DNA of 64,000 nucleotides, from the NCBI GenBank assembly GCA_009746045.1, contig RPFO01000154.1:6895038-6959037 (forward strand), in the 5' to 3' direction. Shown here piece by piece: positions 3,966-44,875 of this stretch (position 1 is the stretch's first letter; every line of letters begins with the position of its first letter). This DNA comes from Mesostigma viride (Eukaryota > Streptophyta > Mesostigmatophyceae > Mesostigmatales > Mesostigmataceae). The notes under the pieces are model-generated. The model saw only the letters and a list, made by a program, of their open reading frames with translations. It searched no databases and was not told the DNA's origin. Both the position numbers and the translations under genes were made by a program.

Positions 3966-4052
3966 CTACCGCCCCGTGTTGTGCTGCTCCAGGAACTGCA
4001 CAACCTCGGAGCGCTTGCAGTGCTTGGCCATGTCCAGTGCCGTGTGACCACC
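3966..4052 (-). CDS. Terminal exon of ankyrin gene A (C-terminal cap repeat)
   Basis: On the minus strand an AG acceptor (CTGCCTGCAG) is followed in phase 0 by 28 codons and a TAG stop. The peptide contains TALDMAKHCKRSEVVQFLEQ, which has the TALD-A opening and the VVQFL second helix of a last ankyrin repeat. Phase 0 matches the phase-0 donors of the 99-nt ankyrin exons upstream (6,787 and higher), so it can close their frame. A paralogous exon with the same ending lies at 58,223-58,318, which argues that it is functional coding sequence. The intron between it and the last full ankyrin exon would be about 2.7 kb. The joined model is inferred from splice sites, not from transcripts. Confidence 0.75.
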   Translation of the reverse strand, partial: GGHTALDMAKHCKRSEVVQFLEQHNTGR

Positions 4053-5062
4053 CTGCAGGCAGCGAGGTGATAGGGGTAAGGAGCAGCAAGTCACACAGCC
4101 ATGTTATTGACCATGTCCCACCCTGTACCCGAGTGTGAGACTGCGCCACTGAAACAAATGTCCCATGCCTAACAGACTAGAGGCAAACTATCCTGTTCAA
4201 AACTCTATTGCCCTTCCATTATAAACCAGCAGACGCCCGCACCGTGCAGTCCCTCTTGTGGCGGCAACAGCATGCCATGTGTACCGGGCCAGCACGACAA
4301 CCCAACAGCTCTACCATCCAGGGTATAGCGTTGTAGTAGAAGTATCATAATGCCATTGAGGGTTTAACGGCGTGGCATCAAGAAAGTTTCAGCGCAGTGG
4401 AGAAACAAAATTACTGTTCTATTAACCGTTGAACTCCAGGGTAACCAGACTCTTTATCAAAACAATGAGTGGAGCACATCAGACAAAAGGCAAGCCACAT
4501 CCCAGCCGCTGATGCTCATGGGAACACTTATTGCTTATCAAAGGCTAGCCTTACCCCCCCAAACGCAGGGAGGGTGGGCGGGAAAAGAAAAGAGGCCAAC
4601 CTTGGCAAGGTGGGTTTGCTTTTGTCTTTTTTGCGTGTCGCATGGCCTTGGCCCGGACGGCATTTTTTAGCCACGCAAATTTTGCGTCTGAGCAAATGAC
4701 GCGAATAGGCGTTCTAATTGCCATCGGCTTACGTAAGAGTGCCTGGGCAATTAGGTCACAGATTGTGTGGGAGACAGATTCTAGATCTAGTTAATCACTA
4801 GAGTAACGTCATTTACTAAGAAACCTAGACAGCGGTAGGTTCATATCTCAATGTAGCTCCTGCCACCTGCTGGCCAGGAAACTGTCCAAATCTTGTGCCA
4901 CTGCCGATCCGGATCAGGCCGCACCGGCCTCAAAAGGTATGTCGCGTAGACCCTATAACCTAGCCTGCATAGCGGCTACCCTTCCATCTCACTATAAAGA
5001 AACTATGTTCAGAGAACCAAAGATTCTGTTAACCGGGAGCTCCAGGGTAACCACACTCTTAA

Positions 5063-5665
5063 GGGGACAGGACATCCCTAATAAACGGCGCATTTTTTGA
5101 TACCATACCTATGCATGTGAGGAAAATCCAATGATGTTTGGGGACCATAAGTATGATTGAAAAAAAAAAATCCAACCACTTGGGGGGGGGGGGGTTACCC
5201 CCCACCATGTGCCCTTTATGAGCTAAAAATAGAAAAGACGCTATTTATGGCCTATTTTCGCTAGGAGAATGGGCAAACCAAATGTGACCAAATCATATAT
5301 TCCCCACCTTTGCAAAAAATTCTGGCTACTCGGGACCACAAAATAAGCATGTTTACACTAATTGATAGGGTTTAGCGGAATACACGTATTTTTTGGTGCA
5401 AAAAAAAAATCATAGACATATTCAACTGGGTCAAATATTATATTGAAAAATGGCCCAGGCTGGGAATTTCACCTTTCCAAAGTTTTAGCTCATGCTGACC
5501 ACGTTTACTCGTATTGATGGATGGTCATGTGCAAAAACAAAAATGACGGGAAAAACCTGTTATTCGCACAAGCATCACTCCAAAAACACCATTGCCCACA
5601 GCAAACTGGGCCAAAACGAGTGCGATTAATTAATTTAATGTATCGTAAAGCTTGCCACAAAACTA
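5063..5665. mobile_element. Truncated TTAA-type DNA transposon in the last intron
   Basis: TTAA at 5,059-5,062 is followed by GGGGACAGGACATCCC, the same kind of terminus as the element at 59,331-61,234, to which this block is collinear. The interior shares, in reverse orientation, a block with 40,850-41,290 of the 3.5-kb transposon (AATGATGTTTGGGGACCATA and GAGCTAAAAATAGAAAA). The match to copy B stops at about 5,665, where the sequence jumps into the middle of an ankyrin exon, so the other end has been lost. Confidence 0.7.
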
Positions 5666-5694
5666 CTGACGCAATGTACAGCGGTGTGACATCA
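5666..5694 (-). pseudogene. Truncated ankyrin exon at the array edge
   Basis: Only the 5' part of an ankyrin exon remains on the minus strand (acceptor intact, then a peptide like NDVTPLYIAS), after which the sequence passes directly into the TTAA transposon remnant. The second helix and donor are missing, so it cannot be spliced as a normal cassette. It marks the recombination breakpoint between array and flank. Confidence 0.7.
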
Positions 5695-6786
5695 TTCTGC
5701 AAGCAGCAGCCACGCATGTCCCCGTGAGGGCCAGATGGAATGTGGGAACCCTGTACAGGAAGGGCTAGCGAGGAGATGTGTCTGCAGTGAATGAAACAGA
5801 CCCACGCGCCATGCGCACACCCATGGACCTCATGGCCCCTGATCATGGCCACAGCCAAACTCATGAGCCTGCCAGCGGCCCCACAGTTGTGCCTGCCTAT
5901 CCACCACTTCGTTGGCTAACTCAAGTCCCGCCGCCAAGTACAACGTCCAAGTAGCCTCCACCCTGACTAACAACGCGGCAGAAAACAAGGGCATCGGTAC
6001 AACCACGGAGAGCGGGGCTTTACCATTGGGGATGAGCCGTATGATCCTTGTGAGAGAGTGATGCCATTAGGAACATCATCAAACATTCCAGGCAGTTGCT
6101 GCGGCCAGCATGGCACGGATACGCTGAACGCTCTGCATATGCCTCCCAGCAAACAAATGGCCCCCTCAGGACAGCCAGGCGGTCAGGATGGGGAAGGCCC
6201 GAAAGCGCGGGCCAGACGCCTGTTCAGATCACCTTGAGAAGGCCTGGCAGTGAAAAGGCTCAGGAAATGGAGGCACCTCACCGCGTGCAACTCGGGTCAA
6301 TGGAACTGGCCGTTCCTCACCCGTTGCCACAAGAGAAGGGGGGAGGGGAGAAGGGCGGGTTCATGATCTCACAGGCCGGTGTGCAATTAAGTAGTATTTG
6401 ACAAACTATTCGGCATAACCAGGTCATACGCATGTTATCTCTCATATCTCTCGGAGTCCTGGCCCTGAGTAAGGTAGTGAAATGAGATCGGTTGTCCGTG
6501 ATCCAGATTCCAGTAGCCACAACTCCTGCCCGGCAGAGCCATCCGCCTCATGGGCAGCAGGCATGCCATGGGGTGCACAGCTCGTCAACAGCACAGTTTC
6601 CCACTGGCAGGGTGCCCAGTGCTGGGAACGTAACAGCACCCAGTGAAGTTGGCAGCAAGCCTGACACCATCGGTTCTAAAGCCCTTTGCCCACCCTACAA
6701 CATGATTGCATTGCTCATACAGACCAAATCTGAAAGTGCGTGGAAGCACATCCGCTTGCGGCCATCAGACTAAAGGAAAGGCTGAC

Positions 6787-6885
6787 CTTGGCCTTCGCCT
6801 CCTTGTTCGCACCGCTCGCGACCAGGTGCTTCACGACCTCCAGGTGGCCGTTACATGCTGCAGAGTACAGCGGTGTGACATCATC
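6787..6885 (-). CDS. Ankyrin cassette exon 1 (most 3' in array A)
   Basis: One 33-codon ankyrin repeat in phase 0, with acceptor TGCAG and donor GTCAGC. Variable residues are V3, Y7, S8, C11 and N12, with helix-2 core GHLEVVKHLVASGAN. The exon is identical in protein to that at 7,965-8,063 and the surrounding units are almost identical, so one arose from the other recently. Confidence 0.85.
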
Positions 6886-7964
6886 CTGCATGCAGCAGCC
6901 ACACATGTCCCCGTGAGGACCAGATGGAACGTGAGAACCCACTGAGCCAGGGGATGTGTCTGCAGTGAATGAGACAGACCTACGCGTCATGCGCACACCC
7001 ATGGACCTCATGGCCCCTGATCATGGCCACAGCCAAACTAATGAGCCTGCCAGCGGCCCCACAGTTGTGCCTGCCTATCCACCACTTCGTTGGCTAACTC
7101 AAGTCCCGCCGCCAAGTACAACGTCCAAGTAGCCTCCACCCTGACTAACAACGCGGCAGAAAACAAGGGCATCGGTACAACCACGGAGAGCGGGGCTTTA
7201 CCATTGGGGATGAGCCGTATGATCCTTGTGAGAGAGTGATGCCATTAGGAACATCATCAAACATTCCAGGCAGTTGCTGCGGCCAGCATGGCACGGATAC
7301 GCTGAACGCACTGCATATGCCTCCCAGCAAACAAATGGCCCCCTCAGGACAGCCAGGCGGTCAGGATGGGGAAGGCCCGAAAGCGCGGGCCAGACGCCTG
7401 TTCAGATCACCTTGAGAAGGCCTGGCAGTGAAAAGGCTCAGGAAATGGAGGCACCTCACCGCGTGCAACTCGGGTCAATGGAACTGGCCGTTCCTCACCC
7501 GTTGCCACAAGAGAAGGGGGGAGGGGAGAAGGGCGGGTTCATGATCTCACAGGCCGGTGTGCAATTAAGTAGTATTTGACAAACTATTCGGCATAACCAG
7601 GTCATACGCATGTTATCTCTCATATCTCTCGGAGTCCTGGCCCTGAGTAAGGTAGTGAAATGAGATCGGTTGTCCGTGATCCAGATTCCAGTAGCCACAA
7701 CTCCTGCCCGGCAGAGCCATCCGCCTCATGGGCAGCAGGCATGCCATGGGGTGCACAGCTCGTCAACAGCACAGTTTCCCACTGGCAGGGTGCCCAGTGC
7801 TGGGAACGTAACAGCACCCAGTGAAGTTGGCAGCAAGCCTGACACCATCGGTGGCAAAGCCCTTTGCCCACCCTACAACATGATTGCATTGCTCATACAG
7901 ACCAAATCTGAAAGTGCGTGGAAGCACATCCGCTTGCGGCCATCAGACTAAAGGAAAGGCTGAC

Positions 7965-8063
7965 CTTGGCCTTCGCCTCCTTGTTCGCACCGCTCGCGAC
8001 CAGGTGCTTCACGACCTCCAGGTGGCCGTTACATGCTGCAGAGTACAGCGGTGTGACATCATC
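7965..8063 (-). CDS. Ankyrin cassette exon 2
   Basis: A 99-nt phase-0 exon with acceptor TGCAG and donor GTCAGC. The protein is the same as exon 1 (V3, Y7, S8, C11, N12). The unit offset is 1,178 bp. Confidence 0.85.
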
Positions 8064-9171
8064 CTGCATGCAGCAGCCACACATGTCCCCGTGAGGACCA
8101 GATGGAACGTGAGAACCCACTGAGCCAGGGGATGTGTCTGCAGTGAATGAGACAGACCTACGCGTCATGCGCACACCCGTGGACCTCATGGCCCCTGATC
8201 ATGGCCACAGCCAAACTAATGAGCCTGCCAGCGGCCCCGCAGTTGTGCGTGCCTTTCCACCACTTGGCAGGCTCACTCAAGTACCGCCAAGTACAACGTC
8301 CAACTAGCCTCCACTCTAACTAATAACGCTGCAGAAAACAAGGGCATCAGTACAACCACGGTGGCAAGGGCTTTACTGATGTGGCTGGCGATGAACCGCA
8401 TGATCCATGTGAGAGAGTCATGCCATTAGGAACATCATCAAACATTCCAGGCACTTAGTTGCTGCGGCCAATACGGCACGGACAGGCTGAACGCACTGCA
8501 TATGCCTCTCAACAAACAAATGGCCCCCTCAGGACAGCAACGCGGTCAGGATGGGGAAGGCCCAAAAGAGCGGGCCAGACACTAGTCCAAATTGCCTTTA
8601 GAAGGCCTGGGAGTGAAAAGGCTCAGGAAATGGAGGCACCTAACTGCGTGCGATTCAGGTCCATGCATTCGGCCGTTCCTACCCCGTTGCCACAAGAGAA
8701 GGGGGGAGGGGGAAAGGGCGGGTTCCTGATCTCACAGGCCGGTGTGCAAGGGCGGGTTCCTGATCTCACAGGCCGGTGTGCAATTTAGTATTTGACAAAC
8801 TATCCGGCACAATCAGGTCATACGCAAGTTATCTCTCGGAGTCCTCGCCCTGAGTACGGAAGTGAAGTGAGATCGGTCGTCCGTGATCCAGATTCCAGTA
8901 GCCACAAGTCCTGCCTGGCAGAGCCATCCGCCTCATGGGCAGCAGGCATGCCATGGGGTGCACAGCTTGTCAACAGCACAGTTTCCCACTGGCAGGGTGC
9001 CCAGTGCTGGGAACGTAACAGCACCCAGTGAAGTTGGTAGCAAGCCTGACACCATCGGTTCTAAAGCCCTTTGCCCACCCTACACCATGATTGCATTGCT
9101 CATATAGACCAAATCTGAAAGTGCGTGGAAGCACATCCGCTTGCGGCCATCAGGGTTAAGGGATAGCTGAC

Positions 9172-9270
9172 CTTGGCCTTCGCCTCCTTGTTCACATCGC
9201 TCGCAACCAGGTGCTTCACGACCTCCAGGTGGCCCTTCCATGCCGCAAAATGCAGCGGTGTCCAGTCATT
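9172..9270 (-). CDS. Ankyrin cassette exon 3
   Basis: A 99-nt phase-0 exon with acceptor TGCAG and donor GTCAGC. It reads TPLHFAAWKGHLEVV with W3, H7, F8, W11 and K12. The usual SGAN turn is SDVN here. Confidence 0.85.
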
Positions 9271-10331
9271 CTGCACACAGCAACCACACATGTCCCCGTG
9301 AGGACCAGATGGAACGTGGGAACGCACAAAGCGGGGAGATGTGGCTGCCGTGAATGAAACAGACCTACGCGTCATGCGCACACCCATGGACCTCATGGCC
9401 CCTGATCATGGCCACAGCCAAACTAATGAGCCTGCCAGCGGCCCCGCAGTTGTGCCTGCCTTTCCACCACTTTGTTGGCTCACTCAAGTACCGCCAAGTA
9501 CAACGTGCAACTAGCCTCCACCCTGACTTACAACGCTGCAGAAAATAAGGGCATCAGGACAACCACACAGGACGGGGCTTTCCTGATGTGGCTGAGGATG
9601 AGCCGTGTGATCCTTGTGAGAGAGTCATGCCATTAGGAACATCAGCAAACATTCCAGGCACTTAGTTGCTGCTGCCAGCATGGCACGGACAGGCTGAACG
9701 CACTGCATATGCCTCCCAGCAAACAAATGGCCCCCTCAGGACAGCCAGGCGGTCAGGATGGGGAGGAACCGAAAGCGCGGGCCAGACAACTGCTCAGATC
9801 ACCTCTAGAAGGTCTGGTAAAGAAAAGGTACAGGAAATGGAGGCACCACGGGGTGGAACTCGGGTCAATGGATTTGGTCGTTCCTCACTCGTTGCCACAA
9901 GAGAAGGGGGGAGGGGGAAAGGGCGGGGAACATGATCTCACAGGCCGGTGTGCAATTAAGTAGTATTTGAAAAACTATCCAGCACAACCGGGTCATGCGC
10001 GTGCTATTTCTCGCCCTGAGCACGGTAGTGAAGTGAGATCGGTCGTCCTCGACACAGATTCCAGTAGCCACGAGTCCTGCCCGGCAGAGCCATCCGCCTC
10101 ATGGGCAGCAGGCATCCCATGGGGTGCACAGCTCGCCAACAGCACAGTTTCCCACTGGCAGGGTGCCCAGTGCTGGGAAGGTAACAGCACCCAGTGAAGT
10201 TGGTAGCAAGCCTGACACCATCGGTTCTAAAGCCCTTTGCCCACCCTACAACATCATTGCGCTGCACATAGACCCAATCTGTGCGTGGAAGCGCATCCGC
10301 TAGCAGCCATCAGGGTACAGGAAAAGCTGAC

Positions 10332-10430
10332 CTTGAGTTTCGCCTCTTTGTCTGCACCGCTCGCAACCAAGTGCTTCACCACCTCCAGGTGGCCCTTCCA
10401 TGCCGCAAAATGCAGCGGTGTCCAGTCATC
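10332..10430 (-). CDS. Ankyrin cassette exon 4
   Basis: A 99-nt phase-0 exon with acceptor TGCAG and donor GTCAGC. Variable residues are W3, H7, F8, W11 and K12, as in exon 3, but the turn is SGAD and the end is LK. Confidence 0.85.
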
Positions 10431-11505
10431 CTGCACACAGCAGCCACACATGTTCCTGTGAGGACCAGATGGAACGTGAGAACCCACTAAGCGAGGGGAT
10501 GTGTCTGCAGTGAATGAGACAGACCTACGCGTCATGCGCACACCCGTGGACCTCATGGCCCCTGATCAAGGCCACAGCCAAACTCACGAGCCTGCCAGCG
10601 GCCCCACAGGTTGTGCCTGCCTTTCCACCACTTTGTTGGCTAACTCATGGACCGCCAAGTACAACATCCAACTAGCCTCCACCTCAACTAACATCGCTGC
10701 AGAAAACAAGGGCATCAGTACAACCACGGAGGACGGGGCTTTACTGATGTGGCTGGGGATGAGCCGTGTGATCCTTGTGAGAGAGTGAGGCCATTAGGAC
10801 TATCAGCAAACACTCCAGGCACTCAGTTGCTGCTGCCAGCATGGCAGGACAGGCTGAACGCAAGGCACATGCCTCCCAGCAAACAAATGGCCCCCTCAGG
10901 ACAGCCAGGCAGTGAGGATGGGGAAGGCCCCAAAACGCGGGCCACACACCTGTTCAGATCACCTTGAGAAGGCCTGCTAGTGAAAAGGTTCAGGAAATGG
11001 AAGCACCTCACCGCGTGCAACTCAGGTCCATGGATTCGGCAGTTCCTCAACCGTTGCCACAACAGAAGGGGGGAGGGGGGAAGGGCGGGGAACACGATCT
11101 CACAGGCCGGTGTGCAATTAAGTAGTATTTGAAAAACTATCCAGCACAACCGGGTCATGCGCGTGCTATCTCTCGGATTCCTCGCCCTGAGTACGGTAGT
11201 GAAGGTAAGATCGGTAGTCCGTGATCCAGATTCCAGTAGCCACAAGTCCTGCCTGGCAGAGCCATCCGCCTCATGGGCAGCAGGCATGCCATGGGGTGCA
11301 CAGCTCGTCAACATCGCAATTTCGCACTGGGAAGGTGCCCCGTGCTGGGAATGTAACAGCGCCCAGTGGAGTTGGCAGCAAGCCTGACACCATCGGTTCT
11401 AAAGCCCTTTGCCCACCCTACAACATGATTGCATTGCTCATATAGACCAAATCTATGTGTGGAGGCGCATCCGCTGGCAGCCATCAGGGTACAGGAAAAG
11501 CTGAC

Positions 11506-11604
11506 CTGGTCCTTCGCCTCCTTGTTCGCACTGCTCGCAACCAGGTGCTTCACGACCTCCAGGTGGCCATTCCATGCCGCAAGATGCAGCGGCGTGCGGT
11601 CATT
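11506..11604 (-). CDS. Ankyrin cassette exon 5
   Basis: A 99-nt phase-0 exon with acceptor TGCAG and donor GTCAGC. Variable residues are R3, H7, L8, W11 and N12. The turn is SSAN and the end is DQ. Confidence 0.85.
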
Positions 11605-12683
11605 CTGCACACAGCAGCCACACATATCCCCGTGAGGACCAGATGGAACGTGGGAACGCACTAAGCGAGGGGATGTGTCTGCCGTGAATGAAACAGACCT
11701 ACGCGTCATGCGCACACCCATGGACCTCAGGGCCCCTGATCATGGCCACAGCCAAACTCATGAGCCTGCCAGCGGCCCCATAGGTTGTGCCTGCCTTTCC
11801 ACCACTTTGTTGGCTGACTTGAGTACCGCCAATTACAACGTGCAACTAGCCTCCACACGAACTAACAACGCTGCAGAAAACAAGGGCATCAGTACAACCA
11901 CGGAGGACGGGGCTTTACTGATGTGGCTGGGGTCCGATGAGCCGTGTGATCCTTGTGAGAGAGTGATGCCATTAGGAACATCGGCAAACACTCCAGGCAG
12001 TTGCTGCTGCCAGCACGGCACGGATACGCTGAACGCACTGCACATGCCTCTCAACAAACAAATGGCCCCCTCAGGACAGCAACGCGGTCAGGATGGGGAA
12101 GGCCCAAAAGAGCGGGCCAGACACCTGTTCAGATCACCTTGAGAAGGCCTTATAGTGAAAAGGTTCAGGAAATGGAGGCACTTCACCGCGTGCATCTCAG
12201 GTCAATGGATTCCGCCGTTCCTCACCCGTTGCCACAAGAGAAGGCCGGAGGGGGGGCAAGGGCGGGGAGCATGATCTCACAGGCCGGTGTGCAATTAAGT
12301 AGTGTTTGAAAAACTATCCTGCACAACCAGGTCATACGCGTGCTATCTCTCGGATTCCTCGCCCTGAGTACGGTAGTGAAAGTGAGATCGGTGGTCCGCG
12401 ATCCAGATTCCAGTAGCCACGATTCCTGCCTGGCAGAGCCATCCACCTCATGGGCAGCAGGCATCCCATGGGGTGCATAGCTCGTGAACATTGCAATTTC
12501 CCACTGGCAGGGTGCCCAGTGCTGGGAACGTAACAGCGCCCAATGGAGTTGGCAGCAAGCCTGACACCATCGGTGGTATAAAAGCCCTTTGCCAACCCTA
12601 CAGCATCATTGCGCTGCACATAGACCAAAACTGTGTGCAGAAGCACATCCGCTGGCGGCCATCAGGGTCAAGGAAACGCTGAC

Positions 12684-12782
12684 CTCGTTCTTCGCCTCCT
12701 TGTTTGCATCGCTCGCGACCAGGTGCTTCACGACCTCCAGGTGGCCCTTCTGTGCCGCAAAAAGCAGCGGTGTCCAGTAATC
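12684..12782 (-). CDS. Ankyrin cassette exon 6
   Basis: A 99-nt phase-0 exon with donor GTCAGC. Its acceptor ends TTCCAG instead of the common TGCAG. Variable residues are Y2, W3, L7, F8, Q11 and K12, and the turn is SDAN. Confidence 0.85.
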
Positions 12783-13860
12783 CTGGAAGCCGCAACCACA
12801 AATGTCCCCGTGAGGACCAGATGGAACGTGAGAATCCACTGAGCGAGGGGATGTGTCTGCAGTGAATGAGACAGACCTACGCGTCATGCGCACACCCATG
12901 GACCTCATGGCCCCTGATCCTGGCCACAGCCAAACTCATGAGCCCGCCAGTGGCCCCACAGTTGTGCCTGCCTGGTTTCCACCACTTCGTTGGCTCACTC
13001 AAGTACCGCCGATTACAACACCCAAATAGCCTCCACCCTGACTTACAACACTGCAGAAAATAAGGGCATCAGTACAACCACACAGGACGGGGCTTTACTG
13101 ATGTGGCTGAGGATGAGCCGTGTGATCCTTGTGAGAGAGTCATGCCATTAGGAACATCAGCAAACATTCCATGCACTCAGTTGCTGCTGCCAGCATGGCA
13201 CGGACAGGCTGAACGCACTGCATATGCCTCCCAGCAAACAAATGCCCCCCTCAGGACAGCCAGGCGGTCAGGATGGGTAGGAACCGAAAGCGCGGGCCAG
13301 ACAACTGCTCAGATCACCTTTAGAAGGCCTGGTAAAGAAAAGGTACAGGAAATGGAGGCACCTCACCGCGTGCAACTCGGGTCAATGGATTCGCCCGTTC
13401 CTCATTCGTTGCCACAAGAGAAGGGGGAAGGGGGGAAGGGCGGGGAACATGATCTCACAGGCCGGTGTGCAATTAAGTAGTATTTGAAAAACTATCCGGC
13501 ACAACCAGGTCATACGTATGTTATCTCTCGGATTCCTCGCCCTGGGTACGGTAGTGAAAGTGAGATCGGTAGTGAGATCGTAATCCAGATTCCAGTAGCC
13601 ACGATTCCTGCCTGGCAGAGCCATCCACCTCACGGGCAGCAGGCATCCCATAGGTGCACAGCTTGTCAACAGCACAACTTCCCACTGGCAGGGTGCCAAG
13701 TGCTGGGATCGCAACGTCCAGTGGAGTTGGCAGCAAGCCTGACACCATCGGTGGCAAAGCCCTTTGCCCACCCTACTACATGATTGCATTGCTCATATAC
13801 CCCAAAACTGTGCGTGGAAGCGCATCCGCTTGCAGCCATCAGAGTAAAAGGACAGCTGAC

Positions 13861-13959
13861 CTTGAACTTCGCCTCCTTGTTTGCACCGCTCGCGACCAGG
13901 TGCTTCACCACCTCCAGGTGGCGCTTCTCTGCTGCAACGTACAGCGGAGTGGCATCATT
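13861..13959 (-). CDS. Ankyrin cassette exon 7
   Basis: A 99-nt phase-0 exon with donor GTCAGC. Variable residues are A3, Y7, V8, E11 and K12. The normally fixed G13 is R, which may weaken the helix-helix turn of this repeat. Confidence 0.85.
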
Positions 13960-15026
13960 CTGCGCGCAGCAGCCAAGCATGTCCCCGTGAGGACCGGATG
14001 GAACGTGAGAACCCACTGAGCGAGGGGATGTGTCTGCAGTGAATGAGACAGACCTACGCGTTATGCGCACACCCATGGACCTCACGGCCCCTGATCATGG
14101 CCACAGCCTAACTCATGCGCCTGCCAGCGGCCCCACAGTTGTGCCTGCCTTTCCACCACTTCGTTGGCTAACTCAAGTACCTCCAGGTACAACGTCCAAC
14201 TAGCCTCCACCCGAACTAACATCGCTGCAGAAAACAAGGGCATCAGCACAACCACGGAGAGCGGGGCTTTCCTGATGTGACTGGGGATAAGCCGTGTGAT
14301 CCGTGTGAGAGATTCACGCCATTGACCACATCAGCAAACATTCCTGGCACTCAGTTGCTGCTGCCAGCATGGCACGGATACGCTGAACGCACTGCATATG
14401 CCTCCCAGCAAACAAATGGCCCTCAGGACAGCCAGGCGGTGAGGATGGGGAAGGCCCGAAAGCGCGGGCCACACACCTGTTCAGATCACCTTTAGAAGGC
14501 CTGGTGGTGAAAAGGTTCAGGAAATGGAGGCACCTCATCGCATGCAGCTCGGGTCAATGGATTCGCCCGTTCCTCACTCGTTGCCACAAGAGAAGGGGGA
14601 AGGGGGGAAGGGCAGGGAACATGATCTCACAGGCCGGTGTGCAATCAAGTAGTATTTGAAAAACTATCCGGCACAACCAGGTCATACGTATGTAATCTCT
14701 CGGATTCCTCGCCCTGGGTACGGTAGTGAAAGTGAGATCGGTAGTGAGATCGTAATCCAGATTCCAGTAGCCACGATTCCTGCCTGGCAGAGCCATCCAC
14801 CTCACGGGCAGCAGGCATCCCATAGGTGCACAGCTTGTCAACAGCACAACTTCCCACTGGCAGGGTGCCAAGTGCTGGGAACGCAACAGCACCCCGTGAA
14901 GTTGGCAGCAAGTCTGTGGTTTAAAAGCTCTTTGCACACCCTACAACATGATTGCACTGCACATATACAAAAACTGTGCGTGGAAGCGCATCCGCTTGCG
15001 GGCATCACGGTAAAGGAAAATCTGAC

Positions 15027-15125
15027 CTTGGTCTTCGCCTCCTTGTTCGCACCGCTCGCAACCAGGTGCTGCACCACCTCCAGGTGGCCCTCATCTGCCG
15101 CAATGCACAGCGGTGTCCAGTCATC
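15027..15125 (-). CDS. Ankyrin cassette exon 8
   Basis: A 99-nt phase-0 exon whose donor is GTCAGA instead of GTCAGC. Variable residues are W3, C7, I8, D11, E12 and Q19, with end TK. The acidic pair DE at 11-12 is unique in the array. Confidence 0.85.
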
Positions 15126-16210
15126 CTGCAAGCAGCAGCCAAGCATGTCCCCATGAGGACCAGATGGAACGTGAGAACCCACTGAGCCAGGGGATGTGTC
15201 TGCAGTGAATGAAACAGACCTACGCGTCATGCGCACACCCATGGACCTCATGGCCCCTGATCATGGCCACAGCCAAACTCATGAGCCTGCCAGCGGCCCC
15301 ACAGTTGTGCCTGCCAAGCTAGTTTCCACCACTTCGTTGGCCAAGGTAAGTACCGCCAAGTACAAGACCCAACTAGCCTACACCCGAACTAACATCGCTG
15401 CAGAAAACAGGGGCATCGGTACAACCACGGAGGACGGGGCTTTACTGATGCGGCTGGGGATGAGCCGTGTGATCCACGTGAGAGAGTCATGCCATTAACA
15501 ACATCAGCAAACATTCCAGGCTGCTGCTGCGGCCAGCATGGCACGGACAGGCGGAACGCACTGCACATGCCTCCCAGCAAACAAATGGCCCCCTCAGGAC
15601 CTCAGGACAGCCAGGCGGTCAGGATGGGGAAGGCCCGACAACGCGGGCTAGACACCTGTTCAGATCACCATTAGAAGGCCTGGTAGTGAAAAGGCTCAGG
15701 AAATGGAGGCACCTCACCACGTGCAACTCGGGTCAATGGAACTGGCCGTTCCTCGTCCGTTGCCACAAGAGAAGGGGGGGAGGGGGGAAGGGCGGGGAAC
15801 ATGATTTCAAAGGCCAGTGTGCACTTAAGCAGTATTTGAAAAACTATCCGGCACAACCAGGTCATACGCATGTTATCTCTCGGATTCCTCGCCCTGAGTA
15901 CGGTAGTGAAAGTGAGATCGGTGGTCCGTGATCCAGATTCCAGTAGCCACGACTCCTGCCTGGCAGAGCCATCCACCTCATGGGCAGCAGGCATCCCATG
16001 GCGTGCACAGCTCGTCAACAACACAATTTACCACTGGCAGGGTGCCCAGTGCTGGGAACGTAACAGTGCCCAGTGGAGTTGGCAGCAAGCCTGACACCAT
16101 AAGTGGTAAAGCCTTATGCCCAACCTACAACATCATTGCGCTGCACATATTCCAAAACTGTGTGCAGAAGCGCATCCGCTGGCGGCCATCAGGCTCTAGG
16201 AAAAGCTGAC

Positions 16211-16309
16211 CTTGAGCTTCGCCTCCTTGCTCGCACCGCTCGCAACCAGGTGCTTCACGACCTCCAGGTGGCCATTCTGTGCCGCAATATGCAGCGGTGT
16301 CCAGTCATC
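16211..16309 (-). CDS. Ankyrin cassette exon 9
   Basis: A 99-nt phase-0 exon with an AG acceptor and donor GTCAGC. Variable residues are W3, H7, I8, Q11 and N12. The turn is SGAS and the end is LK. Confidence 0.85.
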
Positions 16310-17382
16310 CTGCGAGAAGCAGCCAAGCATGTCCCCGTGAGGACCAGATGGAACGTGAGAACCCACTGAGCGAGGGGATGTGTCTGCAGTGAATGAGACA
16401 GACCTACGCGTCATGCGCACACCCATGGATCTCACGGCCCCTGGTCATGGCCACAGTCAAACCCATGAGCCTGCCAGCGGCCCCACAGGTTGTGCCTGCC
16501 TAGTTTCCACCACTTTGTTGGCGAAGTTAAGCACCGCCAAGTACAAGACCCAACTAGCCTACACCCGAACTAACATCGCTGCAGAAAACAGGGGCATCAG
16601 TACAACCACGGAGGACGGGGCTTTACCGATGTGGCTGGGGATGAGCCGTGTGATCCTTGTGAGAGAGTCACGCCATAAGGAACATCAGCAAACATTCCAG
16701 GCAGTTGCTGCTGCCAGCATGGCACGGACAGGCTGAACGCACTGCACATGCCTCCCAGCAAACAAATGGCCCCCTCAGGACAGCCAGGCGGTCAGGATGG
16801 GGAAGGCCCCAAAACGCAGGCAAGACACCTGTTCAGATCACCTTTGGAAGGCCTGGTAGTGACAAGGTTCAGGAAATGGAGGCACCTCACTGCGTGCAAC
16901 CCAGGTCAATGGAAGCGGCCATTCCTCACCCGTTGCCACAAGAGAAGGGGGGAGGGGGGAAGGGCGGGGAACATGATCTCACAGGCTGCTGTGCAATTAA
17001 GTAGTGTTTGAAAAATGATCCAGCACAAACATGTCATACGCATGCTATCTCTCGAACTCCTCGCCCTGAGTACGGCAGTGAAAGTAAGATCGGTAGTCCG
17101 TGATCCAGATTCCAGTAGCCACGATTCCTGCCTGGCAGAGCCATCCACCTCATGGCCAGCAGGCATCCCATGGCGTGCACAGCTCGTCAACAACACAATT
17201 TCCCACTGGCAGGGTGCCCAGTGCTGGGAACGTACCAGTGCCCAGTGGAGTTGGCAGCAAGCCTGACACCATAAGTGGTAAAGCCTTTTGCCCACCCTAC
17301 AGCATCATGGCGCTGCACATATTCCAAAACTGTTTGCAGAAGCGCATCCGCTGGCGGCCATCAGGGTCAAGGAAATGCTGAC

Positions 17383-17481
17383 CTCGTCCTTCGCCTCCTT
17401 GTTCGCACCGCTCGCAACCAGGTGCTTCACGACCTCCAGGTGGCCGTTCAGTGACGCAATGTACAGCGGTGTGGAATCATT
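17383..17481 (-). CDS. Ankyrin cassette exon 10
   Basis: A 99-nt phase-0 exon with acceptor TGCAG and donor GTCAGC. Variable residues are S3, Y7, I8, S10, L11 and N12, and the end is DE. Confidence 0.85.
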
Positions 17482-18541
17482 CTGCAAGCAGCAGCCAAGC
17501 ATGTCCCCATGACAACCAGATGGAACGTGAGAACCCACTGAGCGAGGGGATGAGGCTGCAATGAATGAGACAGACCTACGCGTCATGCGCACATATATGG
17601 ACCTCATGGCCCCTGATCATGGCCACAGCCAAACTTCTCAGCCTGCCAGCGGCCTGCCTTTCCACCACTTCGTAGGCTAACTACAGCACCGCCAAGTACA
17701 ACGTAAAACTAGCCTCCGCCCGAACTAACATCGCTGCAGAAAACAAGGGCATCAGTACAACCACGGAGGACGGGGCTTTACTGATGTGCCTGGGGATGAG
17801 CCGTGTGATCCTTGTGAGAGAGTCATGCCATTAGGAACATCAGCAAACATTCCAGGCACTCAGTTGCTGCTGCCAGCATGGCACGGACAGGCTGAACGCA
17901 CGGCACATGCCTCCCAGCAAACTAATGGCCCCCTCAGGACAGCCAGGCTGTCAGGATGGGGAAGGCCCGAAAGCGCGGGCCAGACACCTGTTCAGATCAC
18001 CATTCGAAGGCCTAGTAGTGAAAAGGTTCAGGAAATGGAGGCACCTCACCGCGTGCAACTCGGGTCAAGGGATTTGGCCGTTCCTCACCCGTTGCCACAA
18101 GAGAAGGGGGGAGGAGGGAAGGGCGGGAAACATGATCTCACAGGCCGGTGTGCAATTAAGTAGTGTTTGAAAAACTATCCGGCAAAACCAGGTCGTACGC
18201 GTGCTATCTCTCGAATTCCTCGCCCTGAGTACGGTAGTGAAAGTGAGATCAATAGTCCGTGATCCAGATTCCAGTAGCCACGATTCCTGCCTGGCAGAGC
18301 CATCCACCTCATGGGCAGCAGGCATCCCATGGGGTGCACAGCTCGTCAACAACACAATTTCCCACTGGCAGGGTGCCCAGTACTGGGAACGTAACAGCGC
18401 CCAGTGCAGTTGGGAGCAAGCCTGACACCATAAGCGGTAAAGCCCTTTGCCCACCCTACAGCATCACTGCGCTGCACATATACCAAAACTGTGCGCAGAA
18501 GCACATCTGCTTGCAGCCTTCAGGGTCAAGGAAATGCTGAC

Positions 18542-18640
18542 CTCGAGCTTCGCCTCCTTGTTCGCACCGCTCGCAACCAGGTGCTTCACGACCTCCAGGT
18601 GGCCATACTGTGCCGCAATATGCAGCGGTGTCCAGTCATC
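18542..18640 (-). CDS. Ankyrin cassette exon 11
   Basis: A 99-nt phase-0 exon with acceptor TGCAG and donor GTCAGC. Variable residues are W3, H7, I8, Q11 and Y12, and the end is LE. Confidence 0.85.
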
Positions 18641-19717
18641 CTGCAAGCAGCAGCCAAGCATGTCCCCGTGAGGACCAGATGGAACGTGAGAACCCACTGA
18701 GCGAAGGGATGTAGCTCCAGTGAATGAGACAGACCTACGTGTCATGCGCACACCCATGGACCTCACGGCCTCTGATCATGGCCACAGCCAAACTCATGAG
18801 CCTGCCAGCGGCCCCACAGTTGTGCCTGCCTTTCCACCACTTTGTTGGCTAACTAAGGCACGGCCAAGTACAACGTCCAACCAGCCTCTGCCCGAACTAA
18901 CATCGCTGCAGAAAACAAGGGCATCAGTACAACCACGGAGGACGGGGCTTTACTGATGCGGCTGGGGATGAGCCGTGTGATCCTTGTGAGAGTCATGCCA
19001 TTAGGAACATCAGCAAACACTCCAGGCACTTAGTTGCTGCTGCCAGCATGGCACGGACAGGCTGAACGCACTGCACATGCCTCCCAGCAAACAAATGGCC
19101 CCCTCAGGACAGCCAGGCGGTCAGGATGGGGAAGGCCCGACAACACAGGCCAGACACCTGTTCAGATCACCTTTAGAAGGCCTGGTAGTGAAAAGGCTCA
19201 GGAAATGGAGGCACCTCACTGCGTGCAACTCGGGTCAATGGAACTGGCCGTTCCTCGTCCGTTGCCACAAGAGAAGGGAGGAGGGGGGAAGGGTGGGGAA
19301 CATGATCTCACAGGCCGGTGTGCATTTAAGTAATTATTGAAAAACTATCCAGCACAACCAGGTCATACGCATGTTATCTCTCGGATTCCTCGCCCTGAGT
19401 ACGGTAGTGAAAGTGAGATCGGTCGTCCATGATCCAGATTCCTGTACCCTCGATTTCTTCCTGGCAGAGCCATCCACCTCGTGGGCAGCAGGCATCCCAT
19501 GTCGTGCACAGCTCGTCAGCATCGCAATTTCCCACTGGCAGGGTGCCCAGTGCTGGGAACGTAACAGCTCCCCGTGAAGTTGGCAGCAAGCCTGACACCA
19601 TCGGTGGCAAAGCCTTTTGCCCACCTAACAACATGATTGCATTGCTCATATAGACCAAATCTGACAGTGCGTGGAAGCACATCCGCTGGGGGCCATCAGG
19701 GTCTAGGAAAAGCTGAC

Positions 19718-19816
19718 CTCGAGCTTCGCCTCCTTGTTTGCACCGCTCGCAACCAGGTGCTTTACGACCTCCAGGTGGCCATTCTGTGCTGCAACGTACA
19801 GCGGAGTGGCATCATC
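19718..19816 (-). CDS. Ankyrin cassette exon 12
   Basis: A 99-nt phase-0 exon with acceptor TGCAG and donor GTCAGC. Variable residues are A3, Y7, V8, Q11 and N12, and the end is LE. Confidence 0.85.
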
Positions 19817-20873
19817 CTGCACACAGCAGCCACACATTTCCCCATGAGGGCCAGATGGAACGTGGGTACCCTGTAAGCGAGGCGATGTGTCTGCAGTGAA
19901 TGAAACAGACCTACGCGTCATGCGCACACCCATGCACCTCATGGCCCCTGATCATGGCCACGGCAAAACTCATGAGCCTGCCAGCGGCCCCACAGTTGTG
20001 CCTGCCTTTCCACCCCTTCATTGGCTAACTCAACTACCACCAAGTACAACGGCCAACTTGCCTCCACTCTAACCAACAACGCTGTAGAAAACAAGGGCAT
20101 CAGCACAACCATGGAGGACGGGGCTTTACTGATGTGGCTGGGGATAAGCCGTGTGATCCGTGTGAGAGAGCCATGCCATGAGGAACATCAGCAAACATTC
20201 CAGGCAGTTGCTGCTGCCAGCATGGCACGGACAGGCTGAACGCACTGAACACGCCTCCCAGCAAACAAATCGCCCTCAGGACAGCCAGGCTGTCAGGATG
20301 GGGAAGGCCCCAAAGCGCGGGCCATGCACCTGCTCAGATCACCTTGAGAAGGCCTGGTAGTGAAAAGGTTCAGGAAATGGAGGCACCTCACTGCGTGCAC
20401 CTCGGGTCAATGGATTTGGCCGTTCCTCACCCGTTGCCACAAGAGAAGGGGGGAGGGGGAAGGGCGGGGAACATGATCTCACAGGCCGGTGTACAATGAA
20501 GTAGTGTTTGAAAAACTATCCGACACTATCATGACATACGCATGTTATCTCTCGGACTCCTCGCCCTGAGTACGGTAGTGAAAGTGAGATCGGTGGTCAG
20601 TGATCCAGATTCCAGTAGCCACGATTCCTGCCTGCCAGAGCCATCCACCTCATGGGCAGCAGGCATCCCATGGGGTGCACAGCTCGTCAAAATCACAATA
20701 TCCCACTGGCAGGGTGCCCAGTGCAACAGCACCCAGTGGATTTGGTAGCAAGCCGTAAATTATCGGTGGTAAAGCCCTTTGCCCACCCTACAGCATCATT
20801 GCGCTGCACATACACAAAAACTGAGTGCAAAAGCGCATCCACTTGCGGCCATCAAGGTAAAGGGATAGCTGAC

Positions 20874-20972
20874 CTTGTTCTTCGCCTCCTTGTTCGCTCC
20901 GCTCGCGACCAAGTGCGTCACGACCTCCAGGCGGCCCTCCCGTGCCGCAAGGTACAGCGGTGTGCGATCAAT
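20874..20972 (-). CDS. Ankyrin cassette exon 13 (most 5' in array A)
   Basis: A 99-nt phase-0 exon with acceptor TGCAG and donor GTCAGC. It is the most divergent array member: I1, R3, Y7, L8, R11, E12, R14 (in place of the near-invariant H) and T19. Confidence 0.85.
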
Positions 20973-21739
20973 CTGCACACAGCAGCCACGCATGTCTTCA
21001 TGAGGACCAGATTAATAAATTGATATGCTGATTACATTCACTCCTGTTGAGAAGTCGTGGAGCACAATGACACAGAGTTTAAGTGATTTTCATCCCTGTA
21101 TGTTGCACGCTGAGAAGGGGGCAGAGACACCCGTCTTCCCTCATGCCCGGAGGCAAGCCACAGCTGCAATCTAAAACTACTCACGAGGAGAGTCTTGGCA
21201 TAACTGTGGGTGCACTAAAGCTGGAATGCGCGGAGGTTTCGTGCCAGACTGGACGCACTACATCTGCCTCCCTGCAAACATCTGGCCCTCAGGACAGCCA
21301 GGCGGTCAGGACAGGCAAGGCCAGACAACGCGGGCCAGAAACCTACTCAGATCACCAAAGGCCTGGTGGTGGAAACGATCAGTATACGAAGCCATCTCAA
21401 CACGCATCATGGGTCAATAGATTCGGCCTTTTCTTACCCATGGCCACATCAGAAGGGGGGGGCGGGGTGGGTTGGTGGGGAACATGATCTCATCAGGAGG
21501 GCTACATGTATCTGAAAAACTATCCGGCACAACCAGCTCATAAGTGTGCGATGTCTCGGATTCTTGCCCTGATTGCGGTAGTGAAGTGAGATTGGTTGTT
21601 TGTGATCCAGATTCCTGTAGCCACTAATCCTGCCCAGAAGAGCCATCCACATCATGGGCAGCAGGCATCCCATGGGTGCCCAGCTTGTCAACAGCACAAC
21701 TTCCCACAGGCAGCATGCCCAGTGCTGGGATTGCAACAG

Positions 21740-21905
21740 CGCCCGAGACATGCTCGACACGGGGGGGATCGCGCCATGTCCACAACGAGTCATGCGCGAC
21801 ACGGGGGGGGTCGCGCCATCTCCACAACGCCCGGGACATGCACGACACGGGGGGGATGTCGCCATGTCCACAAGGCCTGAGCCATGCACGACACCGGGGG
21901 GATCT
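21740..21905. repeat. ~43-bp G-rich minisatellite, about 4 units
   Basis: Four degenerate units share a CGACACGGGGGGG core (at about 21,757, 21,799, 21,845 and 21,889) followed by CGCCATGTCCACAA-like sequence. It sits exactly at the 5' end of the ankyrin array, beyond the degenerate exon-less unit. Unit lengths differ and repeats are contiguous, so it is not a spacer array. Confidence 0.75.
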
Positions 21906-22171
21906 TGCACTTAACTTACACTCTCTTTGTTGATTCAAGAACTGTCTTGAATAAATGGGGTCATAACGGGCAGCGTGGGTGTGTTGTCCTTGAAGTGACT
22001 GGGCACTCGGGTTGCTTCTTAATGTAGGGGCTGGTTACTAGACACAAGGGCCGGGTAACTAGGATCAAGCATCATGCGTTAGCATTCCAGTCTGCTCTGA
22101 CAACATTGAAAATGACATGCTCAATGGAGCATTTACATCCGCGTTGGCACTGGGGTGAACCAAGTACTGAC

Positions 22172-22270
22172 CGCGTCCTTGGCTTCCATGTTGGCACCAT
22201 TTGCGACCAGGCGTTGGACAATGTTGAGATGCCCTGCCTGTGCTGCACGATGCAACGGGGTCTGCCCGAA
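22172..22270 (-). CDS. Founder-like ankyrin exon outside the tandem array
   Basis: A 99-nt phase-0 exon with acceptor GTCCAG and donor GTCAGT. It encodes a canonical repeat opening TPLHRAAQAGHLNIVQRLVA. It differs from all array exons (F1, G2, R8, A12, N16, I17, M28) and its flanks do not match the array unit, so it looks like a non-amplified member lying between the kinase exon and the array. Same length, phase and donor type support membership in one gene. Confidence 0.8.
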
Positions 22271-23391
22271 CTGGACATGACATGAAATTGAAGTAGGGGT
22301 ATTCAATAGAGGGGAGTGGTGAGGGCAAGACGGCATCAAGTGTCGATCAGTTCCAGGAAGTGTAGCCAACTTACTGAGGATCGGCTCATCGAAGACACAC
22401 CAGAACATTGACATGACAATGCTGAAGCATCGATGACCAAAAGGAGGGACCAGCGGCATTGCTGCAGAGGTGAGTAGATTGTGTCGCACCCTCACTGGCT
22501 GCGCCTTATTCTTCATCCATTTATGTCGTTTTCTATGCACCAACAAACACGCGTTGGCGCGAATGGATAAGCCGATAAGCACAGTGTGCAAATGTCGGCG
22601 TGTTCCCACTCATATTATGCTCTGGATAGTTTGCATCAGTGGGCGTACACGCCCACGTTCAAATACTTGGCAGGACACTCTTCACTGAGGTTCTTCAGGA
22701 CCAGATTCACATAGACTATCCAGACGTGAACCTCTACAGGCTGCAATATCCAGGCCAAATTCTCATGGTTCACCGCCTGCTATGCGTAGCTGGGAGTCTG
22801 AAGAAAAATCAGTTTGCCTAATCCCAGTACTCACCGAATATGCCTGCTACCCCAACAAGGTCTGAACCAAAGTCACACTCAAGTTAATTACAGTGCTCAG
22901 TCATACACTGGGTTTTCAATTCGCAACACCAAAATGCACAAGGTCAACGAGTGCCAGGCCATTGTACAGAGTACAGGCTCAAATACTCGGCATAACGGCA
23001 CAGCGAGAAATTTGGTTTATCAGTCCTGAGCTCCTAAAATAGGTCCCTAAAACAACGGCATGCGAAAACTGGGGCTGTATCCATGTTGTATTCTACCCGT
23101 TCCCATAATGAGAGCGAGAAATTAAATCAATAGAGGTCACTCATCACATATTTGCACAACTAGGATTCAGTTCTGCACCTGGTGTTCTGAGCCAGCCGCC
23201 CCACCCCCCTACCCACAATGTATGCAATTCTGAGCCCATTGGGACAGTCTGTTTCTTACAAGGACATGGCACCTTCTATGCCTGCCTCTCTGGGGAAGAC
23301 CTTCTGGACTGCACCATGCGGAGCGCATGCCCTCCCATTCCAAGCAGGGAGAAAAGGAACATGTCAGCCAAAAGTTCCAAAAATTGCGTAC

Positions 23392-23487
23392 ATTGTCTGC
23401 GACATTCATGTCTCGCAGGAGCTCCGCGATTGAAATAGCATCCAGTGGGCCTTCTCTGCCAGCTGCCTGTACTGATGGGCGAGCGTC
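23392..23487 (-). CDS. Candidate exon between kinase and ankyrin exons
   Basis: An AG acceptor (TCTAACAG) is followed in phase 0 by 32 open codons including AISIAELLRDMNVADN, ending at a GTACGC donor, again in phase 0. The peptide resembles a helical-repeat linker, but I do not recognise a family. Another acceptor at about 23,549 with a strong pyrimidine tract opens a different frame. The remaining 22,271-23,391 and 23,488-23,819 show nothing else I can support. Confidence 0.3.
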
Positions 23488-23981
23488 CTGTTAGAGAAGC
23501 GCTCCACGCACAAGACGTGGTGCACCGTGAATACATGCAAGCTGATGGAAGGGCAAAGGGAATAGGACATTGCAGAAAATGCTTGGTCTTGCCATAGCAA
23601 AACAGATAAATTGCAGTTAGTGCAGACACCTTCTGGAAAGCCAACAATGCCGCGCTGCTTTGCTTGCAAGGGTGAGGGCAATAATACCCAAGAAGGTCCA
23701 CCGTACAGAAACGGGCATGTTTCAGTCATGTGTAATCAGCTTCCCAAGGCTAGCATGCGCCGGCTGTATTAGCCAACCCATTCAAGACCGAACATAACAA
23801 CTACAAGAAGAGAGAAGCCTCAGAATGCCCACAGGATTTTTGCTGACCCCCTTTCGCTAACATCTCTTGTTTCATTCAGCAAGACATTTGCGCTATTTGC
23901 ACATTTTGTCACAAACAGCCAAGCCATGCATGGGGAAGCCCGGACGCAGCAGAAACATGTGGCATCCCCCATCCTCCTCAC

Positions 23982-25220
23982 CGGTGCAGATGACGCAGCG
24001 GTTGCTTGCCCAGGTGGTTGCGGGCTGGCAGGGAGTGGAGCTGCAGCAGAGGGCTCGGGGGGTTGTGACTGGGGAGCGATCTGTTGCTGAGCTATCTGGC
24101 TCACCGCCCCTTGCCGCAGCACCACCAGGATCTCTGCAAACGGGGGCCGGTCAGTCGGCTGGTACGCAAAGCAGCGGCGCACAAGGTCCCGCAACGAGCC
24201 GGGCAGGCTGTCTGGGATGGCAGGAGACATCATTCGTGGGGGAGTGACATGTGTCATGATTTGAAACATGTTCAAGCCAGCCCAGGGAGCAGTGGCGGAT
24301 GCCATTTCCACCAAAACGCACCCAAAAGCCCATGCATCCGCTGCGGTGGTTATGCCCCCAAACTCTCCAGGAATCCACTGTTCCGGCGCCATGTAGTTGG
24401 GCGTGCCCTGTGCGCCGAATGTGGGATTGTAGCGTGACATTGTGCTGGTTCGGAGGGCGGAGATCCCAAAATCAGCCACCACCGCCCGCCCATACTTGTC
24501 CAGCAATATATTGGCAGGCTTCAAATCCAGCACCATAATGCCCCGCTCATGCAGGTCAGCGATGGCCAAGGCTACATCCTGACTGATGCTCAGGATGCGG
24601 TCCAAGGGCAGGCCTTGTGAGGTAGCTGCACCTCCATTGCTGACAGTCTGCTGCTGCTGAAGCAGAACCTGTTCCAGCGAGGCACTGTAACGCGGCATGA
24701 CCATGCAGAGCTGGCTGTTAATGCTGGCCACCCCGATGAGGCGGCACACGTTGTGGCAAAAGACTGACGCCTGGTGAAGTATTTGCACCTCCTTCCGAAA
24801 CCTGGAGGACTCATCATCTGTCAGCCCTCTGGCATGGAACATTTTCACCACAACCTCCTGCCCCGTTGGTCTTAGGACCGCCACCGAGACGGCAGCCATG
24901 GCCCCGTTATGAAGGAGTTCGCCCAAGACCAACCTGTCCTGGCTTATGTGAGGAATAGAGGCATCCATGCCTGCAATTCCAAGACGCTGCTGTTCTCTCT
25001 GCTGCTCCACCCATTGCTCAATGAGGGAGCGCAGCGCTACAACAGGGACCAGGGTTTTGTCAGAAAGCCTCAAGTTTGTGAGCGGATCAGTCTCATTGCC
25101 TCGAGTAAACCACTGTTCTATAAAGTTCCTTTCGTAGACTTGACCAGATCCCACTAAGATGACGGGATCTCGCATTATGTCACAAGAGATTGGGCACAGG
25201 AACTGAGCCGGCGGGTCCAT
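23982..25220 (-). CDS. U-box plus non-RD protein kinase, first exon of ankyrin gene A
   Basis: The ATG at 25,220 opens 413 codons. Residues ~5-72 form a U-box (FLCPISCDIMRDPVILVGSG, then Y-R-F-I-W and DP-T), a ubiquitin-ligase domain that recruits E2. Residues ~95-375 form a Ser/Thr-type kinase: VVVKMF carries the ATP lysine, FRKEVQIL the helix-C glutamate, VLDLKPANILLD the catalytic Asp, then VADFGIS and MAPEQW. HRD is replaced by VLD, so this is a non-RD kinase, and the glycine loop is poor. A Gln/Pro/Ala-rich tail follows. At CCG|GTGAGG a good donor falls in phase 0, compatible with the phase-0 ankyrin exons downstream. Unspliced, the frame would stop at 23,820 (466 aa) with an unconserved-looking tail. 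The combination suggests a signalling E3 with ankyrin substrate recognition. Splicing to the array is inferred. Confidence 0.85.
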
Positions 25221-42836: not shown

Positions 42837-42841
42837 GCCAG

Positions 42842-44799: not shown

Positions 44800-44875
44800 G
44801 GCGGCTGCGGAGGGGAGGGGACAACCAACCACCCGTCGACAGCAGACATAACATAAGAGAGGAGAAGGTCTACAA

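Follow-up and report, generated by a model that had tools for sequence, protein, structure and literature searches.

The stretch of DNA analysed here, referred to below as the window, comprises 64,000 nt of contig RPFO01000154.1 in the 440 Mb genome assembly of Mesostigma viride (Streptophyta; Mesostigmatophyceae; GCA_009746045.1), at G000:C1690:6895038-6959037; 110 kb around the window was analysed. Its main feature is a predicted gene, designated gene A, which runs on the minus strand from position 25,220 to position 3,966 and opens with a U-box/kinase exon, continues through 14 ankyrin exons in phase 0 and ends in a cap exon. The predicted spliced product of gene A has a length of 903 amino acids (aa). 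Neither an Rfam match at the gathering score nor a tRNA was found in the window. The parts of gene A are as follows (window coordinates).

23982..25220, minus strand: exon 1 (1239 nt, ATG at 25220), encoding the U-box (aa 4-76), the kinase domain (aa ~100-365) and a Pro/Ala/Gln-rich linker
23981, minus strand: donor of exon 1, phase-0 GTGAGG
22172..22270, minus strand: ankyrin exon 1, divergent, FGQTPLHRAAQ..., with counterparts after the heads of genes B and E (see below)
5667..21012, minus strand: tandem array of ~1.17-kb exon+intron units
20874..20972, minus strand: ankyrin exon 2, 99 nt, phase 0; the unit around it shares 98.3% identity with the second unit of gene B
19718..19816, minus strand: ankyrin exon 3, 99 nt
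18542..18640, minus strand: ankyrin exon 4, 99 nt
17383..17481, minus strand: ankyrin exon 5, 99 nt
16211..16309, minus strand: ankyrin exon 6, 99 nt
15027..15125, minus strand: ankyrin exon 7, 99 nt
13861..13959, minus strand: ankyrin exon 8, 99 nt
12684..12782, minus strand: ankyrin exon 9, 99 nt
11506..11604, minus strand: ankyrin exon 10, 99 nt
10332..10430, minus strand: ankyrin exon 11, 99 nt
9172..9270, minus strand: ankyrin exon 12, 99 nt
7965..8063, minus strand: ankyrin exon 13, 99 nt; its unit is ~98% identical to the next, a recent duplication
6787..6885, minus strand: ankyrin exon 14, 99 nt, the last full repeat
5667..5696, minus strand: broken remnant of a further ankyrin exon, 30 nt, NDVTPLYIAS, at the left array edge
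3966..4052, minus strand: terminal cap exon, phase 0, GGHTALDMAKHCKRSEVVQFLEQHNTGR followed by a stop

A sequence-only reading of the window had described at least 14 exons of exactly 99 nt, and all 14 are indeed of this length, open in frame and bordered by AG and GT. The ~1.17-kb tandem spacing it described was likewise found for 13 successive exons, which stand at 12 spacings of 1156-1207 bp, and the U-box/kinase exon with a phase-0 donor and the in-register phase-0 cap exon with a stop were both confirmed in the window. As for the ankyrin profile, which the same reading had proposed to search with each exon, agreement extends to three of the 14 exon peptides; joined, they match PF00023 (E = 8.4e-30, three stretches). 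The cap exon (4052-3966) begins in the repeat register of the 99-nt exons. The 30-nt remnant at 5696-5667 is probably left out of the mRNA, since its inclusion would upset this register.

According to Pfam analysis, the head of gene A matches the U-box profile PF04564 (E = 2.8e-18, 66.3 bits versus a cut-off of 21.4) and the Pkinase profile PF00069 (E = 3e-37, 128.9 bits versus a cut-off of 31.7), the latter identifying a kinase fold. The relatives of the U-box in the PDB are U-box proteins, the closest being 7xed, "U-box domain-containing protein 12" (E = 3.9e-17), presumably a plant protein. Sequence and PDB alignments show that the kinase domain keeps the Lys (VVVK), the catalytic Asp, DFG and APE. 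The E3 ligase and kinase activities of the head are putative and assigned by homology. No Pfam match to NACHT or NB-ARC was detected in the gene A head, the introns not having been scanned with domain profiles, and no relative of this head was confirmed in viral contigs.

Gene B, a sister gene, is located upstream of gene A on the same strand and contains 50 ankyrin exons versus 14, the first of which matches that of gene A. The following parts of gene B were placed.

G000:C1690:7016007-7017245: head of gene B, outside the window, as are the remaining gene B exons
63241..63339, minus strand: ankyrin exon 49 of 50
62063..62161, minus strand: ankyrin exon 50 of 50
58223..58318, minus strand: cap exon RGRRGDTALDVAKRLKRSEVVQFLEQHNAGR followed by a stop, homologous to the gene A cap

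In addition, a third gene of this cluster, gene C, is represented by a cap and six exons in the part analysed.

The heads of genes A and B share 98.1% nucleotide identity and differ by nine amino-acid changes, with a ratio of nonsynonymous to synonymous rates (dN/dS) of 0.23. The kinase exon (1239 nt) aligns between the two genes free of gaps up to the donor, whereas past the donor eight indel columns fall within ~160 nt, and the unspliced open reading frames (ORFs) stop at 466 versus 448 codons. The frame is thus kept before the donor and broken right after it, which supports the use of the donor at 23981. A kinase-only protein was rejected as the conserved product, because the ORF tail past the donor loses its frame between A and B.

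The similarity of the two genes extends through intron 1 (96.2% identity) and the first two ankyrin units (94-97% and 98.3%, respectively), while for units 3-14 of gene A the best match in gene B reaches only 84-91%. The 3' flanks (window 2821-5666 versus 56405-59947) are 89-92% identical versus 96-98% for the heads. This points either to a later exchange or duplication of the 5' part of A and B than of the 3' part, or to quicker evolution of the 3' part.

All 50 exons of gene B have a length of 99 nt, AG/GT borders and an open frame. The proposal of the earlier reading that duplication of a unit adds one repeat and leaves the frame intact is therefore upheld by a near-identical head followed by so many in-frame exons, and the comparison of the two gene models shows that unit number differs between sister genes (14 versus 50) with the frame kept. 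The count of 50 presumes correct assembly across the repeat; most units differ by at least several per cent, and the contig has a length of 9.1 Mb.

The whole genome was searched with the head and with the exon pattern, and the resulting match counts are lower bounds. At least 104 matches to the head were found, at least 21 of which span at least 368 of the 413 residues in a single uninterrupted frame, with identities of 47-100%. Among the matches listed, four heads show 97-100% identity (two on C1690, one on C1735 and one on C113). In gene E, on C1735, a head 98% identical to that of gene A carries the gene A donor and precedes an almost identical first ankyrin exon and then five different 99-nt exons; all six exons detected in the 9 kb read are bounded by AG and GT (detection required a matching frame). 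The 99-nt exon pattern, with up to three mismatches, gave at least 186 matches genome-wide versus none for the reversed control. By coordinates, a row of at least 31 such matches lies downstream of the C113 head, mostly in ~1.17-kb steps with two larger gaps. Eight further heads, three of them split or partial, have an ankyrin match nearby, which in seven of the eight cases lies on the same strand and downstream, again by coordinates. The order of head, first ankyrin exon and array on one strand is common to genes A, B and E; the cap is also found in A and B.

A different one-repeat array was observed at G000:C1435:494597-504685. It contains ankyrin repeats of 34 aa in 102-nt exons, many at ~235-bp steps, and 26 of the 33 matches scanned are AG-102 nt-GT exons (a small number lying slightly upstream of the interval). 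Together with the 99-nt arrays, it shows that one-repeat exons have been amplified on more than one occasion in the genome. A further ankyrin array, at G000:C810:102562-135486, has a period of ~1.255 kb in the part read and carries long ORFs with several repeats and no 99-nt exons. Single ankyrin repeats with exon-like borders were also seen on the plus strand at distances of ~11.9, 13.6 and 39.5 kb to the left of the window and, right of it, at 177236-178458 (window coordinates); these seem to be other ankyrin genes using one-repeat exons.

The integrity of the exons was assessed across the arrays. In genes A and B, all 64 detected exons are 99 nt long, open and flanked by AG and GT, and they encode 58 distinct peptides. 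The first exon detection required a matching frame and was therefore redone with a frame-blind DNA profile, derived from the A and B exons and applied with E up to 1e-3, a threshold that the 30-nt remnant does not reach. Across what is visible of arrays A, B and C, this profile gave 75 matches, of which 70 fall on the 70 intact exons and the other five are plus-strand ankyrin exons; no frameshifted or stop-bearing exon copy was found by it there. An alignment of 14 units contains no gap column in the exon, versus 13.7% of intron columns with gaps. Exon gap columns were again absent when 55 of the 64 A and B units were aligned, the nine units dropped being the divergent A01 and B01 and those outside 1100-1240 bp. 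Splice sites are uniform as well, with the donor GTCAGC in 44 and the acceptor GCAG in 60 of the 64 exons.

Two candidate descriptions of the array were discarded on these grounds. A normal product with retained or read-through introns was rejected, as an in-frame stop lies at most 339 nt upstream and at most 495 nt downstream of every one of the 64 exons. A broken satellite was likewise rejected, given the intactness of all 70 exon copies recovered with the frame-blind profile.

The same data bear on the possibility that a separate U-box kinase gene ends at 23820 and that the array is a decaying satellite-like repeat with an ankyrin-like exon. Such an arrangement would agree with the kinase ORF, which continues stop-free to 23820 (466 codons) when the donor at 23981 is not used, with the truncated exon at the left array edge, and with the status of head-array splicing as a prediction only. 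However, the 70 exon copies are intact despite intron indels and 8-13% intron divergence; genes A, B and E all show the head, the first ankyrin exon and the array arranged identically on one strand, and A and B have the cap too; and past the donor the ORF tails of A and B fall out of frame, the preceding exon being gap-free. We consider two unconnected elements highly unlikely.

Comparison of the units indicates how the array of the predicted single gene has changed. Full-length pairwise identity among 13 gene A units and one gene B unit ranges from 86.4 to 92.5%, and the last two gene A units are 98.5% identical. Gene B contains higher-order repeats with a three-unit period (e.g., units 21, 24 and 27) and with a six-unit period (12/18, 13/19 and 15/21). 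When the intron was divided into six segments, the pairwise p-distance over 55 units was highest in the exon (0.153), followed by the first (0.131) and last (0.126) intron segments, and lowest in mid-intron (0.084). The exon distance matrix correlates with those of the adjoining intron segments (0.41 and 0.45) and not with those of the two middle segments (-0.04 and 0.03). The divergence peak at the exon, together with the loss of matrix correlation along the intron, argues for frequent exchange between units within introns, the exons moving as modules. This indicates that exons are shuffled by recombination inside introns, and we infer that unequal crossing over and gene conversion produced the pattern.

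Two mid-intron stretches were found to be unusually alike among the 55 units (alignment columns ~630-690 and ~870-960), with a p-distance of 0.05-0.06 versus ~0.1 around them. The first of these, at columns ~630-690, is gap-rich.

Within the exon, the scaffold residues TPL, LEVV and KEAK are nearly fixed, and the variable codons are 1, 3, 7, 8, 11, 12, 32 and 33. These eight codons were picked post hoc; the only positions set beforehand were the six that we take to be randomised in designed ankyrin repeat proteins (DARPins), namely 2, 3, 5, 13, 14 and 33 (DARPin numbering). One DARPin chain in the PDB varies at positions 2, 3, 5, 13, 14 and 33. According to PMC6590788, six positions per library repeat are randomised; a list of positions was not found in the part of PMC8683736 consulted.

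Selection was analysed after removing duplicate exons and the two divergent first exons, A01 and B01. Over 14 distinct exons (12 of gene A, two of gene B), the mean nonsynonymous divergence (pN) was 0.325 at the six DARPin positions versus 0.091 at the remaining 27 (p = 0.008 by permutation). The excess was found again in each gene taken singly (p = 0.005 for the 12 distinct exons of A, p = 0.008 for the 46 of B). Codons 3 and 11 are more divergent than all 945 intron triplets. For the post hoc variable codons, pN was 0.43 in A and 0.35 in B, versus synonymous values (pS) of 0.26 and 0.31. The comparison of the predicted exons thus shows purifying selection holding the frame and the scaffold residues, with a few repeat positions varying strongly; the variable positions are probably under diversifying selection.

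This variation could also be read as relaxed constraint, the ankyrin solenoid being a structural or scaffolding rod whose repeat number is loosely constrained. Surface positions are the least constrained in repeat proteins, the overall exon dN/dS is 0.55, the closest PDB relatives of the repeats include the scaffolds ankyrin-1 and ankyrin-2 beside designed DARPins, and the site-wise selection test described below is weak, all of which suits a rod. Against it stand the excess of codons 3 and 11 over every intron triplet and the rise of pN above pS at the post hoc codons in both genes. With variable codons above the neutral level and a divergence peak centred on the exon, relaxed constraint alone is not expected to suffice, and we regard a mere rod as improbable.

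It is likely that gene A belongs to a receptor-like family in which a constant U-box E3/kinase head is joined to an expandable, recombining and probably diversifying ankyrin recognition domain. The sequence-only reading had also proposed such a domain; this part of it stays conditional and is backed by where the repeats vary. In the product, the U-box/kinase head would carry a C-terminal ankyrin solenoid built from 99-nt phase-0 exons, one repeat each, and closed by the cap. Units would be gained and lost via unequal exchange, and the variable positions may build the ligand-binding face of the solenoid, so that the family would evolve new or wider binding specificities fast. More or different repeats would then alter the range or strength of binding, and binding might direct the kinase and/or the ubiquitin ligase onto the bound target or a signalling partner. 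A protein of this kind may fit the role of a receptor for non-self or stress.

Several observations weigh against a diversifying receptor. The head-array and exon-exon junctions are predicted from sequence, and one broken exon sits at the array edge of gene A. At the six DARPin positions dN/dS is 1.1-1.2 (0.5-0.6 over all codons), and at the post hoc variable codons gene A reaches 2.0 but gene B only 1.2. None of the 14 units compared differs at DARPin position 33, and positions 1 and 10, outside the DARPin set, vary strongly. A site-wise likelihood test gave beta > alpha with p < 0.1 at seven of 33 codons (1, 3, 8, 10, 11, 25 and 32), only codon 32 being strong, and constraint at 14 other codons, codon 7 included; this test used a tree built from the exon plus 60 nt per side that ignores recombination between units, a fixed kappa, and p values uncorrected for 33 tests. 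The kinase domain has VLD where HRD is expected, together with a degenerate glycine loop, which makes kinase activity uncertain; the enzyme may be a non-RD or weak kinase.

The exon structure would also permit alternative splicing, by which phase-0 exons are skipped or included and one gene yields many solenoids, as with the LRR (leucine-rich repeat) exons of brown-algal ROCO genes. All exons are phase 0-0 and equal in length, so every combination of them stays in frame, and alternative splicing is reported for comparable LRR arrays in the part of PMC11378527 consulted. On the other side, the uniform donors and acceptors mark no exon as optional, intronic base-pairing elements not having been searched for. 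Such splicing is possible, if doubtful. An extended form, in which individuals, or even single cells, differ in the number and order of their exons through intronic recombination combined with alternative exon inclusion, would make the family a repertoire-generating recognition system with a constant head on tens of interchangeable ankyrin exons; this we hold to be unlikely. If true, it would represent a natural counterpart of a DARPin library, marking non-self or damaged proteins for phosphorylation or ubiquitination.

As a receptor-like family, gene A and its relatives would add ankyrin repeats with an E3/kinase head to the few lineages with expandable receptors made from symmetric one-repeat exons. 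Because the head and the first repeat are nearly constant while the repeats go from 14 to 50, the family offers a convenient test case for array polymorphism, somatic variation, alternative splicing and ligand binding.

Other features of the window were noted. At 42838-52356, a Gypsy-like long terminal repeat retrotransposon lies on the minus strand between 576-bp direct repeats that are 98.3% identical; Pfam identified reverse transcriptase and RNase H in it, and visual inspection a gag-like zinc knuckle as well as integrase-like ORFs. Parts of a LINE-like reverse transcriptase gene flank the element, which apparently landed within that gene. A stop-to-stop ORF of 1323 codons at 29730-33701 (plus strand) encodes three AAA and two AAA lid domains and a Glu/Arg-rich repeat tail, and a stretch overlapping this ORF recurs at 97-99% identity between genes B and C. 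Positions 1-1095 and 1256-2350 form a direct duplication with 99.8% identity.

Among the systems that come closest are the LRR-ROCO and NB-TPR genes of brown algae, proposed immune receptors. According to the part of PMC11378527 consulted, each LRR of the ROCO genes is a 72-bp phase-2 exon, and these exons are described as shuffled and alternatively spliced, with four concave sites under positive selection; the NB-TPR genes have the TPR as a one-repeat exon, and the ROCO head is a ROC-COR GTPase (PMC11378527, citing Zambounis et al. 2012). Gene A resembles these genes, as far as described there, in its symmetric exons that each hold a single repeat (all 70 copies in the visible arrays A, B and C and six of six detected in gene E), in their tandem arrangement and in exon shuffling, which is expressed here in the matrix decorrelation along the intron and the higher-order repeats of three and six units. 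It differs from them in its ankyrin repeats (99 nt, phase 0) and in a U-box and kinase head that lacks ROC-COR or NB-ARC. Unlike in the brown-algal ROCO genes, the ~1.1-kb introns of gene A are themselves part of the amplified unit.

LRR genes of Tetrahymena, in the portion of PMC6564038 consulted, consist of 90-bp exons, with 1 to 51 per gene in T. thermophila, and some are fused to kinases. Equal-length symmetric exons and the kinase fusion are shared with gene A, and unequal crossing over is proposed there (PMC6564038); in contrast to gene A, these arrays are LRR and phase 2, and that portion mentions no U-box (PMC6564038). Fungal NLRs have highly conserved ankyrin, TPR and WD repeats with repeat-number polymorphism and positive selection at five positions, all but one on the concave face, according to the part of PMC4986451 consulted. 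The ankyrin repeats of the gene A family share with them a high internal identity (PMC4986451, same part), but the fungal proteins have a central NOD domain and the gene A head has none. The main text of PMC4986451 does not contain the word "intron" and so reports no amplification of exon units in those terms.

Like the plant PUB E3 ligases, gene A has a U-box whose closest PDB relative is 7xed; unlike in plant PUBs, the order is U-box, kinase and ankyrin array. Plant PUBs often bear armadillo repeats instead, and the PDB match 1t1h to the gene A U-box is named as an armadillo-repeat protein. With DARPins the predicted protein shares a fixed repeat scaffold with varied surface positions; it is distinguished from them by being natural, by its separate exons and many more repeats, and by the 14 units in which position 33 is fixed and positions 1 and 10 vary.

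In open-licence literature, judged by title or the start of the abstract, no earlier ankyrin/U-box-kinase exon array was found. The kind of system is already known, while its ankyrin/U-box-kinase version appears new. Gene A would work like the brown-algal ROCO, Tetrahymena LRR and fungal NLR systems but belongs to none of them.

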